Of a DNA stretch of 64,000 nucleotides, positions 1 to 6,483 are shown one piece after another. Position numbers and translations under genes: made by a program. The first letter of the stretch is position 1. Each line of letters starts with the position of its first letter. Origin of the DNA: an uncultured Bacteroidota bacterium (lineage in GTDB: Bacteria > Bacteroidota > Bacteroidia > Bacteroidales > GWA2-32-17); NCBI GenBank assembly GCA_903837285.1, contig CAILUD010000099.1, positions 1 to 64,000 on the forward strand, read 5' to 3'. The notes beneath the pieces were generated by a model, which had not been told where the DNA came from, did no database searches, and was given only the letters and a program-made list of their open reading frames with translations.

Positions 1-19
1 AAAATATTTGCATAGAATT

Positions 20-48
20 GCAACCCAAATATTTTTTTCTTGTCTTTA
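20..48 (+). promoter_or_regulatory. ECF-sigma-type promoter of the sigma/anti-sigma operon
   Basis: A GCAACCC box (20-26) is followed, after 17 bp between AAC and GTC, by CTTGTCTTTA (39-48). This is the general architecture of ECF promoters (an AAC-containing -35 and a GTC-containing -10). Nearly the same sequence with identical spacing recurs at 2792-2820, which is the best support. That the sigma factor encoded just downstream reads it is inference; autoregulation is common in ECF systems. Confidence 0.7.
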
Positions 49-77
49 GTTTTGAAATTAAATCCTGAAAAGGAATA

Positions 78-626
78 GTGCAGGAAGATATTCATAAAAA
101 ATTAGTTGAAAGGTGTATCCGCGGAGAACGGAAAGCACAGTTTGAGTTATATAAACTTTATTCAAAAGCTATGTTCAATATTTCCTATAGAATGTTAAAT
201 AATAAAAGTGATGCCGAGGACATGCTTCAGGAAGTATTTACAGATATTTTTACACGAATACATTCATTCCGGTTTGATTCAACAATAGGGGCTTGGATAA
301 AGCGTATAACGGTTAATAAATGTATTAATGAAATTAATCGTAAGAAAACTAATTTAAATTTTGTTGAAGATATTTCTGTTTTTGATAAAGGCGAATATGT
401 GGAAGAAGAAAACATTCCATTATCAGTTGAAAATGTAAAAACTGCAATGGAACAATTACCAAATGGAAGCCGAATTATTTTCTCACTTTATTTACTTGAG
501 GGATATGATCACGAAGAAATAAGCCAGATTTTAAACATAAGCGAATCTACATCAAAAACTCAGTACATGAGAGCTAAACAAAAAGTAAAAGAACTCTTAA
601 AACCACAGTTATATGAAACAAGATAA
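78..626 (+). CDS. ECF-family RNA polymerase sigma factor
   Basis: This 182-residue protein has the two-domain layout of an ECF sigma factor. Region 2 spans about residues 20-90 and includes DAEDMLQEVF and a WIKRITVNKCINEINR segment. Region 4 spans about 128-176 and includes an HEEISQILNISESTSKTQYMRAKQKVKELL helix-turn-helix. The start is GTG with an AAAAGG-like ribosome site upstream; I see no better ATG. It overlaps the next gene by 14 bp, which suggests translational coupling to its presumed anti-sigma factor. An ECF-type promoter lies about 30 bp upstream, so it probably activates itself. The stimulus is unknown. Confidence 0.93.
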   Translation: MQEDIHKKLVERCIRGERKAQFELYKLYSKAMFNISYRMLNNKSDAEDMLQEVFTDIFTRIHSFRFDSTIGAWIKRITVNKCINEINRKKTNLNFVEDISVFDKGEYVEEENIPLSVENVKTAMEQLPNGSRIIFSLYLLEGYDHEEISQILNISESTSKTQYMRAKQKVKELLKPQLYETR

Positions 627-1308
627 GCTGGAAAAATTTGTTTCTGAAAACAGACAGGCATTTGATGAGTTTGAACCATCACTGCAGAATTGGGAACAAA
701 TTAACAAAAACATTCAACCCAAAAAACCTAATCTCTTTTTAAAGATTTCATGGCAGGTGGCTGCTGCAATAGTAATTTTTGTTAGTTCATATTATTTCCA
801 TGATTATATTAATAATGATAAAGTTTATTATGCAAATACTGTAAAACAGATAAAAAATGTGAGCATTAAGATTAAACAAAAAACATTGCAAAATAATAAC
901 AATACAATTGCAACAAATAACAATGAAATAGAATTAAAACAAGAAAATCTTATTGTAACTACTACTCAAAAAAATAATCAAAAAACAGAAAACAGTTACT
1001 ATTCCGAACTTAATGAATTAAGCGTTTACTATACTTCAAAAATAAATAAAGAAAAAAACGACATTTTCATACTAGCTTCTAATAATCCGGAAGTTAAAAC
1101 TGAAATAAATAACGAATTTGGAAAACTTGATAAAGCCTACAAAGAATTAAAAAATGACCTAAAAGAAAATATTAACAACCAACAGGTAATTGAAGCAATG
1201 ATAGAAAACTATAAGCTTAAAATGGAAATGTTGGAATTTATTAAACGTCAGGTTAGTATTGAGGTAACAGAAAAAACAGAAAATAATGAGACTAAATATG
1301 ACATGTAA
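613..1308 (+). CDS. Probable membrane-bound anti-sigma factor
   Basis: The protein has a cytoplasmic N-terminus of about 45 residues, one transmembrane helix (about 46-62, SWQVAAAIVIFVSSYYF) and a long Asn/Lys/Glu-rich, probably periplasmic or coiled C-terminal part. No enzyme motif is visible. Its position directly after, and overlapping, an ECF sigma gene is the main reason for the call, because anti-sigma factors of this phylum usually have this single-TM shape. No zinc-binding HxxxCxxC motif of the ZAS class is present. It overlaps the next gene by 23 bp. Confidence 0.7.
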   Translation: MKQDKLEKFVSENRQAFDEFEPSLQNWEQINKNIQPKKPNLFLKISWQVAAAIVIFVSSYYFHDYINNDKVYYANTVKQIKNVSIKIKQKTLQNNNNTIATNNNEIELKQENLIVTTTQKNNQKTENSYYSELNELSVYYTSKINKEKNDIFILASNNPEVKTEINNEFGKLDKAYKELKNDLKENINNQQVIEAMIENYKLKMEMLEFIKRQVSIEVTEKTENNETKYDM

Positions 1309-2392
1309 AAAATTTACTTTAATTGTTTTTACTTTATGTATTGCAATTTACAGTCAGGCACAACAGGTTGAATTTAATAAGAGCACAAATAAATCTTTTA
1401 AAATTTCACCCGAAACAAGTGTTCAAATAATTAACAAATACGGCAATATTCATATTGTTAAATCAGAAACCGATTCTGTTACTTTTTCTGTCGAAATTAA
1501 AGCAACAGATAAAGATTCTGCAAAAGCAACAAAAATCATTAACAATATATCTATTCAGTTTGATGCTTCAATGTATTATGTTATTGCTAAAACTGCTTTT
1601 AATGATTATAAAGGAAGTGCCTGGTCAAATCTTTCAGACATAGCAAGTACTGCAATAAGCGGAGGAAATAAAGTTCAAATAAACTGGACAGTAACTATAC
1701 CAGAAAATACTGAATTGAAAATTGAAAACAAATTTGGAAATATTTATATGTTAAACCATAACTCCGAATTAAATATAGATTTATCAAATGGAGATTTTCA
1801 GGCACAAAATTTAACAGGAAAATCAATATTAAACGTAGAATTCGGTAACGTTAAAATTAAAAATATAACTTCAGCAAAATTAGAATTGTCATATTCTGAA
1901 ACCGACATAACAACTGCTGGAAACATTGATTTATATAGTAGATCAACCACTCTAAATTTAACAACAGTAAATAATCTTGAAATAAACTCAAGAAATGACA
2001 AATTATATGTAGACAGTGTTACAGTTTTAAAAGGTGAAGCTTATTTTTCAGTAATTAAAATTAATAAAGCAATAAAAAGCACACTCCTTAATTTAAAATT
2101 CGGCAGTATATATTTTAATGTGCTAAACGACCTGTCTTCAAGTCTCTTTATTACTACTTTGTATACTGATTTGTATCTTAATTATGACAAAACCTTTAAT
2201 GGTAAATTTGAGTCAAATTATAAAAAAACAACCCTTACCCTGCCATCAGTTTTTGATTCATTTACAAAAACGTTATTAGATGAAAAAACTAAAGAGTATA
2301 AATTAACTGGTTTTATTGGTGAACAAAAAACACCAGCATCTGAAATAAAACTTAATTTAAATTACGGTAGTTTATCCTGTGTAATTAAATAA
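1286..2392 (+). CDS. Secreted beta-strand-repeat protein (DUF4097-like)
   Basis: An N-terminal signal peptide ending near YSQAQQ is followed by repeated short beta-strand segments with the 'NKYGNIHI', 'NKFGNIYM', 'EFGNVKI' and 'KFGSIYF' pattern. This is typical of the DUF4097/GIN group of beta-helical envelope proteins. The true start may be the second ATG (1298), which gives a cleaner signal peptide (MTCKKFTLIVF). It is the third gene of the sigma/anti-sigma operon and overlaps the anti-sigma gene, so it is probably an output or sensor of that system. The molecular function is not known. Confidence 0.65.
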   Translation: MRLNMTCKKFTLIVFTLCIAIYSQAQQVEFNKSTNKSFKISPETSVQIINKYGNIHIVKSETDSVTFSVEIKATDKDSAKATKIINNISIQFDASMYYVIAKTAFNDYKGSAWSNLSDIASTAISGGNKVQINWTVTIPENTELKIENKFGNIYMLNHNSELNIDLSNGDFQAQNLTGKSILNVEFGNVKIKNITSAKLELSYSETDITTAGNIDLYSRSTTLNLTTVNNLEINSRNDKLYVDSVTVLKGEAYFSVIKINKAIKSTLLNLKFGSIYFNVLNDLSSSLFITTLYTDLYLNYDKTFNGKFESNYKKTTLTLPSVFDSFTKTLLDEKTKEYKLTGFIGEQKTPASEIKLNLNYGSLSCVIK

Positions 2393-2455
2393 CCATTTAC
2401 AAAACTCAAAAAAAAATTAAACATAAGGATTTACTAAATCAACAATTAACTACCC

Positions 2456-2730
2456 CTATTGGCGCAAGTTCGCAACTTATGACAAACTATGCTCGTCATA
2501 ACGTTTATAACATCCGCTTTATTCAATTAACATCTATTGGCGCAAGTCCCATCTATTGGCGCAAGTCTGTGACTTGTGACCCCTCTATTGGCGCAAGTTT
2601 GCAACTTGTGATAAACTACCCCTCTATTGGCGCAAGTCTGTGACTTGTGACCCCTTTGCAAGTTTGCAACTTGTGATAAACTACGCCAATCATAACGTTA
2701 ATATTATCCGCGTTAATCAACTAAATTCGC
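2456..2730. repeat. Intergenic hairpin-repeat array (REP/BIME-like)
   Basis: The segment CTATTGGCGCAAGT starts at 2456, 2534, 2553, 2585 and 2624, and a decayed sixth copy lies near 2652. Each full copy contains a small palindrome, CAAGT-TTGCA-ACTTG or CAAGT-CTGTG-ACTTG. A second, longer motif (CATAACGTT...ATCCGC...) is present twice, near 2497 and 2690, at the two ends of the array. The rest of the 450-bp gap carries the downstream promoter. The pattern resembles REP/BIME arrays mobilised by RAYT transposases, but no such gene is in the window. Confidence 0.75.
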
Positions 2731-2791
2731 TTTATTAGCGTTGCTATTTACTACCAAAACTATTTTTTTTACTATAATTTTTCTGTTTTTT

Positions 2792-2820
2792 GCAACCCTC
2801 GATTATTTTTCTTGTCCTTA
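2792..2820 (+). promoter_or_regulatory. Second copy of the ECF-type promoter
   Basis: GCAACCC (2792-2798) and CTTGTCCTTA (2811-2820) have the same 17-bp AAC-to-GTC spacing as the promoter at 20-48. The match continues downstream through TTTTGAAATTAAAT. The box overlaps the longest open frame of the next gene, so that gene must begin later, at ATG 2845. Confidence 0.7.
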
Positions 2821-2844
2821 ATTTTTGAAATTAAATTATTAATT

Positions 2845-3555
2845 ATGAAAAACAAACTTTTTTATTTAGTCATAATCTTCTCAATAACAACTCTTACTTC
2901 TTGTTTAAAGCCTAAGGTTGAGGGCAATTATCATGTTGTTAGTATTAACAGAAACATTACAAGCTATAATGAAATTGTATCAGAAGGCAGTTATGAAGTA
3001 TATTATTCTTATGATACTCTATGTAATGTTATAATTGAAGCAGAAGAGAATATAATTCCATATGTAGAAACCAATATTCATGGTCAAAGCTTGGTTATTA
3101 AAACTTCACACAGTCAAAGATTAGAAACTCATTTTCCAATAAAGGTTTTTGTTACCTCTCCAACTTTAAGCAATGTTATACTTTCTGGTTCTGGATCAAT
3201 TTCAGTAGATAGTATAAAAACGTGTAATCTTGGAATAAATTTAAAGGGATCTGGAAATATAAATGTTGAGTCCTATACCCAACTAATTAAAGCTACAATA
3301 TCCGGTTCGGGGAATTTATGTCTTTCCGGACATACCTCTACCGGCGAATGTAATATTTCTGGTTCTGGTGAAGTAAATGCCTATAACATTATTCAGGATA
3401 CATGCTTTGCAAACATCTCCGGATCTGGCTCGATGAATTTACAAGTAATAGATTATTTAAATGCACATATTAGTGGTAGTGGACAAATTTACTATATCGG
3501 AAACCCGATTATAAATACACATATTACAGGATCAGGAAGAATAATTCATCAATAA
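2845..3555 (+). CDS. GIN-domain (DUF2807) lipoprotein
   Basis: The protein starts MKNKLFYL and has a lipobox-like LTSC at the end of the signal peptide, so it is probably a lipoprotein. The mature part matches the head GIN-domain/DUF2807 family: an early VEGNYHV...V..GSYEVYY segment is followed by a right-handed beta-helix with repeated 'SGSG' turns (LSGSGSI, LKGSGNI, ISGSGNL, ISGSGEV, ISGSGSM, ISGSGQI, ITGSGRI). An upstream TTG at 2812 lies inside the -10 region, so ATG 2845 was chosen. Its ECF-type promoter suggests control by the sigma factor encoded at the left end. Function of the family is unknown. Confidence 0.85.
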   Translation: MKNKLFYLVIIFSITTLTSCLKPKVEGNYHVVSINRNITSYNEIVSEGSYEVYYSYDTLCNVIIEAEENIIPYVETNIHGQSLVIKTSHSQRLETHFPIKVFVTSPTLSNVILSGSGSISVDSIKTCNLGINLKGSGNINVESYTQLIKATISGSGNLCLSGHTSTGECNISGSGEVNAYNIIQDTCFANISGSGSMNLQVIDYLNAHISGSGQIYYIGNPIINTHITGSGRIIHQ

Positions 3556-4596: not shown

Positions 4597-6483
4597 ATGA
4601 GGTTTTTTGTTTGTCTTTTTATTAGTTTAAGTTTTTTTATTTATTCTTGCCAGAATAATGAGAAACCTGTTTTTGATGAAAATGCATCGCAAAATGATAC
4701 AAATAAAGTAATTGAATTGTTAATACTAGTCAATAATAATGTAATTTCAAACCCAAAGTTTGCAAAAGAAAAAGGAAATGAGGCAATTACGTTAGCTCAA
4801 TCTATTGGCTATAAAAAAGGTTATGTAAATGGACTTTTAAATTTAGGTCAGGTTTATTTGAAAGGCAATGAATATGTAATGGCTAAGCGATATTTTATGT
4901 CGGCATTAATGTATTTAAAAGAAAACGAATTGATTTTACTTGAGCCCAAATGTCTTGGTAGCCTTGGAATTGTCTCCGAAAGATTATGCAATTATCCCGA
5001 AAGTATTAATTATTATGAAAGTTGCAGAAAAGCATTTACGAAAATTAATGATACTGTTGGCGTAATTAAAAGTCAGATCAATATTGGAAATGTATATAAT
5101 GCATTAGGAAATACTTCAAAAGCGGTAAGTGTTTTACTTGAGGCAATTAGGATGTCAGAATTGATTAATAATGAAAATGTAAAAGGTGTTTGTTTAAACA
5201 ATTTAAGTACTTTATATCAAGAAATGGGAAAAAATGATGAAGCACTTAAATCTTTTTTTATTGTTTCAGAAATTACAATAAAATCTGCTGATAGTTCTGG
5301 ACTTGCAAATGCTTATAATAATATAGGTATTACATATCAGAGTTTAAAAAACAATGATTTGTCCCTTAAGTATTATTTGAAGTCTGCTGAAATTAGGCAA
5401 GTAATGAATGATAAAACTGGTTTGGCAATTTCATTTAATAATATTGGGTCTTTAAGGTATGATGCAAAAGATTACAAATCGGCTCTTGATTATTTTAAAA
5501 AGGCATACGAAATTACAGAAGAGACTCAGGATTTGTTGCCCTCTAGTAAATATTTAAAGAATATTAGTGATGCATATAGTAAACTTGGTAAATACAATGA
5601 AGCAATCGACTGTTTAAACCAAAGTTTATCTATTGCAAACAAAATTGGTGCTAGTTCCGAGAAATCAACAACATTAAATGCTTTATCGGAAGTATACATT
5701 CAAACAAATGATTATGAATTGGCTTATAACTATTTTAAGGCTTACAGTTTATATAACGATTCATTAAATGTTCTTGAAAATAATAAAGCTATTGAAGAAA
5801 TGAAAGGGCTTTATGAGTCTGAAAAGAAAGAACAGCAAATAACAAAACTAGAGTCAGAAAAGCAATCGGCTAAACTTACAAATATTTTGCTTTATGGTTT
5901 TGCAGTAATGCTTGTTATTATTGGCGGGTTGATTTTTTTATGGCAAAGAAACAAAAGCATAAAAAACAGGCAAAATGCCGAATATCGTCAATCTTTAATT
6001 GAAGAAAAACTTACTGTTGCAAAATTAGAACAACATAATCTAAAGCAGGAACTTCAATATAAAGAGAAAGAGCTGGTTAATATGGCATTATACATAATTC
6101 AGAAAATAGAATTCATTGAATTGTTAAATAACGAATTAAAAACTCTTCAAAAAGAATCCAAGGAAGAAAAAAATGAAGTTGTAAATAAGCTTTCACAATT
6201 AATCTCAGCAAATGTAAAACTTGACAAAGAACGGTTAGATTTTCAATTACATGTAGAAAATGTTAACCAATCTTTTTTTATAAAACTCAAAGAAAAATTT
6301 CCTGGTATTACTGAAAACGAAAAGAAACTTTCTGCATTACTTAGAATTAACCTATCTTCAAAAGATATTGCATCTATTTATAATATTTCGCCATCAAGTG
6401 TTGATATGAATCGTTACAGATTAAGGAAAAAATTAAACTTAAATTCCGACGAAAATCTAGGCGAGTTTTTAAATAACATATAA
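4597..6483 (+). CDS. TPR / transmembrane / HTH regulatory protein
   Basis: The N-terminus is a signal or lipoprotein-like peptide (FFIYSCQNN). Residues about 40-390 form tetratricopeptide repeats (for example NIGNVYNALGNTSKAVSVLLEAI and NNIGITYQSLKNNDLSLKYYLKS). One transmembrane helix (about 428-447) follows, then a coiled coil, then a C-terminal helix-turn-helix (LSSKDIASIYNISPSSVDMNRYRLRKKL) of the LuxR/GerE-like kind. This architecture is common in Bacteroidota and is thought to act as a one-component membrane regulator with a periplasmic TPR sensor. The ligand and targets are unknown. It may control the next gene, whose promoter has the same TACTTTTG box. Confidence 0.85.
   Translation: MRFFVCLFISLSFFIYSCQNNEKPVFDENASQNDTNKVIELLILVNNNVISNPKFAKEKGNEAITLAQSIGYKKGYVNGLLNLGQVYLKGNEYVMAKRYFMSALMYLKENELILLEPKCLGSLGIVSERLCNYPESINYYESCRKAFTKINDTVGVIKSQINIGNVYNALGNTSKAVSVLLEAIRMSELINNENVKGVCLNNLSTLYQEMGKNDEALKSFFIVSEITIKSADSSGLANAYNNIGITYQSLKNNDLSLKYYLKSAEIRQVMNDKTGLAISFNNIGSLRYDAKDYKSALDYFKKAYEITEETQDLLPSSKYLKNISDAYSKLGKYNEAIDCLNQSLSIANKIGASSEKSTTLNALSEVYIQTNDYELAYNYFKAYSLYNDSLNVLENNKAIEEMKGLYESEKKEQQITKLESEKQSAKLTNILLYGFAVMLVIIGGLIFLWQRNKSIKNRQNAEYRQSLIEEKLTVAKLEQHNLKQELQYKEKELVNMALYIIQKIEFIELLNNELKTLQKESKEEKNEVVNKLSQLISANVKLDKERLDFQLHVENVNQSFFIKLKEKFPGITENEKKLSALLRINLSSKDIASIYNISPSSVDMNRYRLRKKLNLNSDENLGEFLNNI

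Follow-up and report, generated by a model that had tools for sequence, protein, structure and literature searches.

We examined a 64,000-nucleotide stretch of DNA from an uncultured Bacteroidota bacterium of the order Bacteroidales (contig CAILUD010000099.1 of assembly GCA_903837285.1), referred to below as the window, in which two neighboring operons are each preceded by a nearly identical promoter-like site. We consider it very probable that one extracytoplasmic function (ECF) sigma factor, encoded at 78-626 behind P1, uses both sites (P1 and P2) as its promoters. On the forward strand, the strict motif GCAACCC-N12-CTTGTC occurs at 20-44 (P1) and 2792-2816 (P2), with 17 nt between AAC and GTC at both, as had been stated in an earlier interpretation of the window made from its letters alone (the sequence-only reading). 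No other match was found in the window, even when the gap was varied to N10-14, and dinucleotide shuffles gave an expectation of 0.01 matches vs the 2 observed. In the whole genome (4.29 Mb), the strict motif is confined to P1 and P2; a match at C189:36348 on contig C189 is P1 itself, counted again via an overlap of contigs. The spacers of P1 and P2 are unlike (AAATATTTTTTT and TCGATTATTTTT, respectively). Scans with one or two mismatches gave no more matches in the window than in shuffles and modestly more than the control genome-wide, and were not used for extending the regulon.

P1 is placed directly behind recX, and the sigma gene begins, with GTG, 33 nt farther on. Window positions 1-141 correspond to C189:36329-36469, a 141-bp overlap of contig ends. 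C189, which carries a prmC-like gene and recX, is the true upstream neighbor of the window, as the order prmC-like gene, recX, P1, sigma gene in two congeners shows.

To follow P1 among relatives, we took 80 loci encoding the nearest relatives of the sigma factor (from Bacteroidales, Cytophagales, Sphingobacteriales, Saprospirales and others) and searched the 200 bp preceding each sigma gene for GCAAC-N15-17-TGTC. The pattern was present in 69 of the 80; a reversed-pattern control had 12 matches in 771 kb, both strands, corresponding to about 0.1 expected in the upstream regions searched. Letters set by the pattern are invariant by construction, so that only columns beyond them carry information: T precedes GCAAC in 68/69 sites, and T is found at positions 2 and 3 after TGTC in 60/69 and 61/69, respectively. 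The AAC-GTC spacing is 17 nt in 56 sites, 18 in 12 and 16 in one. The 80 loci are not independent, as many are from Dyadobacter and Pedobacter; nonetheless, the spacers vary freely between families. The sigma gene, the probable anti-sigma gene and a third gene (gene 3) form a core that is kept in nearly all of the loci. P1 thus has the attributes of an ECF-type autoregulated promoter, with AAC and GTC 16-18 nt apart, upstream of its own sigma gene and kept in orthologs, and the predicted extended motif across Bacteroidota is TGCAAC-N15-TGTC-NTT, followed by RAA.

P2 is conserved as a block in four congeners, with 33 of 45 alignment columns invariant vs 9 of 78 just upstream, and the DNA farther upstream is unconserved. 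Outside the genus, an order-wide search with the barrel protein encoded behind P2 provided 20 loci. A P2-type site lies in the gap that follows gene 3 in 7 of the 14 non-congeneric Bacteroidales loci with the core operon, the total gap of which is 1.6 kb, with 0.01 sites expected in the shuffled gaps; in some of these 14 loci the start of the fourth gene was set by hand. Chance occurrence of P1 and P2 was rejected on the basis of this expectation and that from the window shuffles. Five further cases came from the sigma search (L033, L034, L038, L041 and L094), of which L038, from Geofilum rubicundum, has both promoters. In all, at least 12 non-congeneric genomes have P2 at the same place, before a gene for a GIN lipoprotein or a small outer-membrane protein. 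Among 15 such sites from outside the genus, all have TT after TGTC and 14 have T before GCAAC, and the RAA is weaker. Other arrangements also occur. In L218 and L253 (genomes G023 and G139), gene 3 is followed directly by the GIN and outer-membrane genes and no P2 was found; in L258, L257 and L267 (G055, G118 and G016), downstream genes again follow closely behind gene 3 with no P2, and no GIN gene was detected in the latter two. Conversely, L249, L254 and L260 (G073, G075 and G153) have the site before detached GIN/barrel genes, with no sigma gene in the stretch examined. Operon joining, local promoters and detached promoters together point to one regulon.

Because the sites are conserved across the phylum, we regard predicted autoregulation of the sigma operon and co-regulation of the P2 operon as strongly supported. 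The sequence-only reading had proposed an autoregulated sigma factor in control of both operons, and the conservation of P1 in 69 of 80 relatives and of P2 in congeners and other Bacteroidales bears this out. That the regulon concerns the envelope, as also proposed, follows from the gene products. The features are collected in Table 1.

Table 1. Features of the two operons and their promoter sites, in window coordinates.
Feature	Position	Strand	Details
Promoter P1 (predicted)	20..44	+	-35 GCAACCC, -10 CTTGTC, AAC-N17-GTC
TTTTGAAATTAAAT after P1; probable start site with first transcribed bases	50..63	+	G at +10 from C of GTC
ECF sigma factor, 182 aa, GTG start	78..626	+	Sigma70_r2 4.2e-12, Sigma70_r4_2 1.8e-14; 80 relatives
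Probable anti-sigma factor, 231 aa	613..1308	+	Conserved position, alignment, AlphaFold architecture, weak NF052375 matches
Gene 3, secreted, DUF4097/DUF2807-like (Toastrack) beta-helix fold (modeled)	1286..2392	+	AlphaFold pLDDT 88.9; PDB matches 4qrk, 3lyc, 3pet
REP-like repeats between operons, outside promoter	2451..2724	+	Stretch not conserved in congeners
Promoter P2 (predicted)	2792..2816	+	-35 GCAACCC, -10 CTTGTC, AAC-N17-GTC; kept in congeners G001, G002, G004 and more distant Bacteroidales
TTTTGAAATTAAAT after P2	2823..2836	+	TGAAA invariant in four congeners
GIN-domain (DUF2807) lipoprotein	2845..3555	+	PF10988 2.2e-42
Predicted outer-membrane beta-barrel protein, 207 aa	3574..4197	+	26 aligned family members, invariant C-terminal F

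The gene content behind P1 is that of a sigma/anti-sigma operon, as the sequence-only reading had it, with gene 3 left unmentioned there. The sigma protein fits the ECF class, which has sigma2 and sigma4 only, with PF04542 and PF08281 above cut-off in its 182 residues. The next gene, which overlaps the sigma gene by 14 bp and is itself overlapped by gene 3 by 23 bp, probably encodes the anti-sigma factor, judging from position, architecture and a weak family match. In its AlphaFold model (pLDDT 79.7, pTM 0.45), a pair of short helices in the cytosol is followed by a long helix through the membrane and a periplasmic helical bundle. Aligned relatives have in common an N-terminal F(V/I)xxNRxxFDxxxPSxxLWxxI and a single hydrophobic helix, and their periplasmic helical domain is conserved. 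By gene order and architecture, the protein thus resembles a membrane anti-sigma factor: co-operonic, with a cytosolic N-terminus, one transmembrane helix and an extracytoplasmic domain. It has no Pfam match, and comparison of the model with the PDB gave no meaningful structural homologue; the NCBIfam family NF052375 ("anti-sigma factor") matches 9 of 35 family members weakly. The gene 3 protein, for which the AlphaFold model is confident, appears to have a Toastrack-like fold, assigned by fold only and with modest TM-scores: the top-ranking PDB entries are putative adhesins (4qrk, 3lyc and 3pet; E from 4.8e-08 to 6e-05, low TM-scores), and a Pfam DUF4097 match was found in 3 of 26 relatives.

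Behind P2, the genes are as claimed, a GIN lipoprotein and a barrel protein, the latter a prediction; no Pfam match was found in the 26 members of the barrel family. Between gene 3 and P2 there are four copies of a 37-nt repeat (CTATTGGCGCAAGTYTGYRACTTGTGACCCC) resembling repetitive extragenic palindromic (REP) elements, of which near-exact core copies elsewhere in the genome are found on contig C61 only. Directly past the P2 operon, 4597-6483 encodes a TPR protein with a C-terminal LuxR-like helix-turn-helix (GerE 1.9e-05).

The sequence-only reading had further pointed to a conserved stretch downstream of the -10 element, ending at 63 and 2834. The stretch is indeed present, as the 14 bases TTTTGAAATTAAAT, and the first end is right, but the second is at 2836, and rather than an element of its own we read it as the start region. 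It begins 5 nt past GTC at P1 and 6 nt past GTC at P2, a one-base register shift, and in the P1 sites of relatives the letters R, A and A at offsets +10..12 from TGTC are found in 68/69, 65/69 and 59/69, respectively. Because it lies 10-12 nt past the -10, has a purine-A-A core and slips by one base between P1 and P2, TTTTGAAATTAAAT most likely represents the transcription start and first transcribed bases and no separate element.

An alternative would be that a housekeeping sigma-A -7 box (TAnnTTTG) coincides with, or overlaps, the TTTTGAAATT stretch and gives basal transcription beside the ECF promoter. Such a box can be read at 47-54 of P1 (TAGTTTTG) and at P2 of congeners G002 and G004 (TATTTTTG), but it is absent from P2 of this genome and from that position in all 69 P1 sites of relatives, and it lacks a TTTG -33 box at the right distance. 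At the level of the family, what is conserved is the RAA, as a start site would give. We therefore find the sigma-A box unsupported as a conserved element across relatives (0/69 P1 sites) and the explanation as a whole unlikely. The 14 identical downstream bases, in addition to the two boxes, might also suggest that P1 and P2 resemble each other through recent duplication of one promoter region, with no bearing on regulation. This is extremely improbable, and we rejected it, since the spacers of P1 and P2 differ, both sites are kept in four congeners despite divergence of the DNA around P2, and other families have the site with spacers of unrelated sequence.

A different question is whether P1 and P2, though ECF promoters, are read by this sigma factor. 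A GCAAC-N-GTC just upstream is also present at three further ECF genes of the genome: those at C116:15494 (L204; GCAACCC..ACGTC, 17-nt spacing) and at C25:17698 (L203) and C207:9045 (L201), both with 18 nt, and a fourth at C99:76248 (L198) has a GCAAC half-site. The skeleton thus seems common to several ECF sigma factors, cross-reading is possible, and specificity must be set by the letters of the -10, the spacer and the flanks. The relaxed motif GCAACY-N14-16-TGTC also exceeds its control (30 matches vs 13 in this genome and 46 vs 11 in G004), with many intergenic sites before genes for secreted proteins far from this sigma gene. On these grounds, P2, or both sites, could be read mainly by another ECF sigma of the cell. 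Against this, P1 and P2 have CCC, CTTGTC and the start region in common within the same cell, many lineages have P2 adjacent to this sigma operon, and other lineages have the P2 genes merged with the P1 operon, so that we hold a different main reader to be quite improbable. Recognition of both sites by the sigma factor encoded behind P1 is nevertheless weakened by several points: the other ECF genes with such sites, through which another sigma could read P2 or both; the gapped loci, such as L252 and L255, in which the strict pattern finds no P2; and the identity of the anti-sigma factor, which stands on position, architecture and a weak family match. The claim that the two sites define a regulon and predict its motif is accordingly supported for co-regulation and not for a motif exclusive to one sigma.

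The predicted regulon is small. A genome-wide scan for the strict motif, suggested by the sequence-only reading, found no match beyond P1 and P2, which makes the regulon a local one, plus one weaker candidate. In a scan for TGCAAC-N14-16-TGTC-NTT, no sites other than P1 and P2 were shared by all four congeners. The candidate, P3 (TGCAAC..TTTGTCTTTA..TGAATTT), is intergenic at C154:12412-12436 on the minus strand, before genes for a TonB-dependent receptor and a DUF4249 lipoprotein (locus L290, C154:8000-13900), and is kept in three of the four congeners (also in G001 and G004). No close ortholog of the receptor was found in G002, and its paralogs with readable upstream DNA are without the site. 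We therefore name the receptor as a tentative third target only, with a chance somewhat short of even. The remaining matches are mostly within reading frames. Some of the looser GCAACY-N-TGTC sites of this genome and G004 (e.g., L148, L156, L158, L174, L186 and L190) lie 17-100 nt before genes for large secreted proteins, which are possibly exported by the type IX secretion system (T9SS); these sites may belong to another ECF regulon.

From the observed sites, their conservation, the gene content and the linkage, we infer how the sigma factor recognizes P1 and P2, where transcription starts, what the signal is and what the targets do. In the resting state, the product of the neighboring anti-sigma gene would keep the sigma factor at the inner membrane. 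Release would come with an envelope signal, sensed by the periplasmic helical domain of the anti-sigma factor and possibly also by the Toastrack-fold protein of gene 3. With RNA polymerase, the freed sigma factor would recognize TGCAAC (-35) and TGTC-NTT (-10) at a spacing of AAC-N17-GTC and start at a purine about 10 nt past GTC. P1 would amplify the sigma factor, the anti-sigma factor and the gene 3 protein, giving both positive and negative feedback, and P2 would supply the GIN lipoprotein and the barrel protein, acting at the outer membrane.

ECF operons that control themselves and a linked target operon are textbook knowledge, and Escherichia coli RpoE and Bacillus subtilis SigW are encoded in autoregulated operons of an ECF sigma and a single-pass anti-sigma factor. 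The present system is of this type in the overlap of sigma and anti-sigma genes in one operon, in AAC at -35 and GTC at -10, and in a promoter predicted to be self-read. It differs in an anti-sigma sequence without a Pfam match, in its targets, and in the conserved T before GCAAC, the 17-nt spacing and the TT after TGTC.

Within Bacteroidota, Das1-Dma1 and Das2-Dma2 of Bacteroides thetaiotaomicron pair an ECF21 sigma with a dual membrane-spanning anti-sigma factor (PMC13088901), and Phocaeicola vulgatus has a similar pair (PMC9308784). The likeness is in an ECF/anti-sigma pair with envelope functions, the Das/Dma sigma being upregulated on loss of the anti-sigma (PMC13088901), whereas Dma ends in an outer-membrane beta-barrel and the protein described here in a helical C-terminal domain, the barrel being a separate gene under P2. 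A Dma-family assignment was rejected, given the lack of a fused C-terminal barrel, the length of 231 aa and the all-helical model. An ECF-type -10 and T9SS/envelope genes are likewise features of the Flavobacterium psychrophilum SM6 promoters, which have a CGT box (PMC9723704), and of Porphyromonas gingivalis SigP (PMC4800418, PMC8265659), and SM6 resembles our system in having an ECF/anti-sigma pair among its targets (PMC9723704); in the portions consulted, they concern another operon, with neither a GCAAC -35 nor a GIN/Toastrack target described. In those same portions, the operon studied here appears in none of the Das/Dma, P. vulgatus, SigP or SM6 descriptions.

The Toastrack domain unifies DUF4097, DUF2154 and DUF2807, with 4QRK cited as an example, and an operonic link to a sigma factor is mentioned in general terms (PMC11237479). 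Our operons are similar in having a DUF2807 protein, a Toastrack-like gene 3 and an operonically linked sigma factor, membership being by PF10988 for the GIN protein and by fold only for gene 3. Unlike Toastrack envelope-stress modules, both proteins here start with hydrophobic signal-like sequences, and the two operons have no PspA, PspC or LiaF gene. An open-access literature search, with ECF Hub motif tables and subscription journals outside its scope, yielded no report of a GIN/Toastrack ECF regulon; those tables may already contain a prediction of the motif.

Judging from the portions of the literature examined, few Bacteroidota ECF promoters are defined outside Bacteroides, Porphyromonas and one Flavobacterium. 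Our results provide a precise predicted promoter, with likely targets, for a sigma factor present in culturable relatives (Dyadobacter, Pedobacter, Runella and Emticicia), and tie Toastrack/GIN proteins to a putative ECF switch. They also call for caution, in that GCAAC/GTC alone is insufficient to assign a promoter to one ECF sigma in these genomes. More broadly, and with about an even chance of being right, we propose a phylum-wide Bacteroidota envelope-stress circuit that would consist of the ECF sigma factor, a short-domain anti-sigma factor of a new class, a secreted Toastrack protein and the promoter TGCAAC-N15-TGTC-NTT-N6-RAA, to which Bacteroidales would have attached outer-membrane GIN/barrel genes by a second promoter copy or by operon joining. 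If true, such a circuit would be a general Bacteroidota counterpart of the RpoE or Lia responses.
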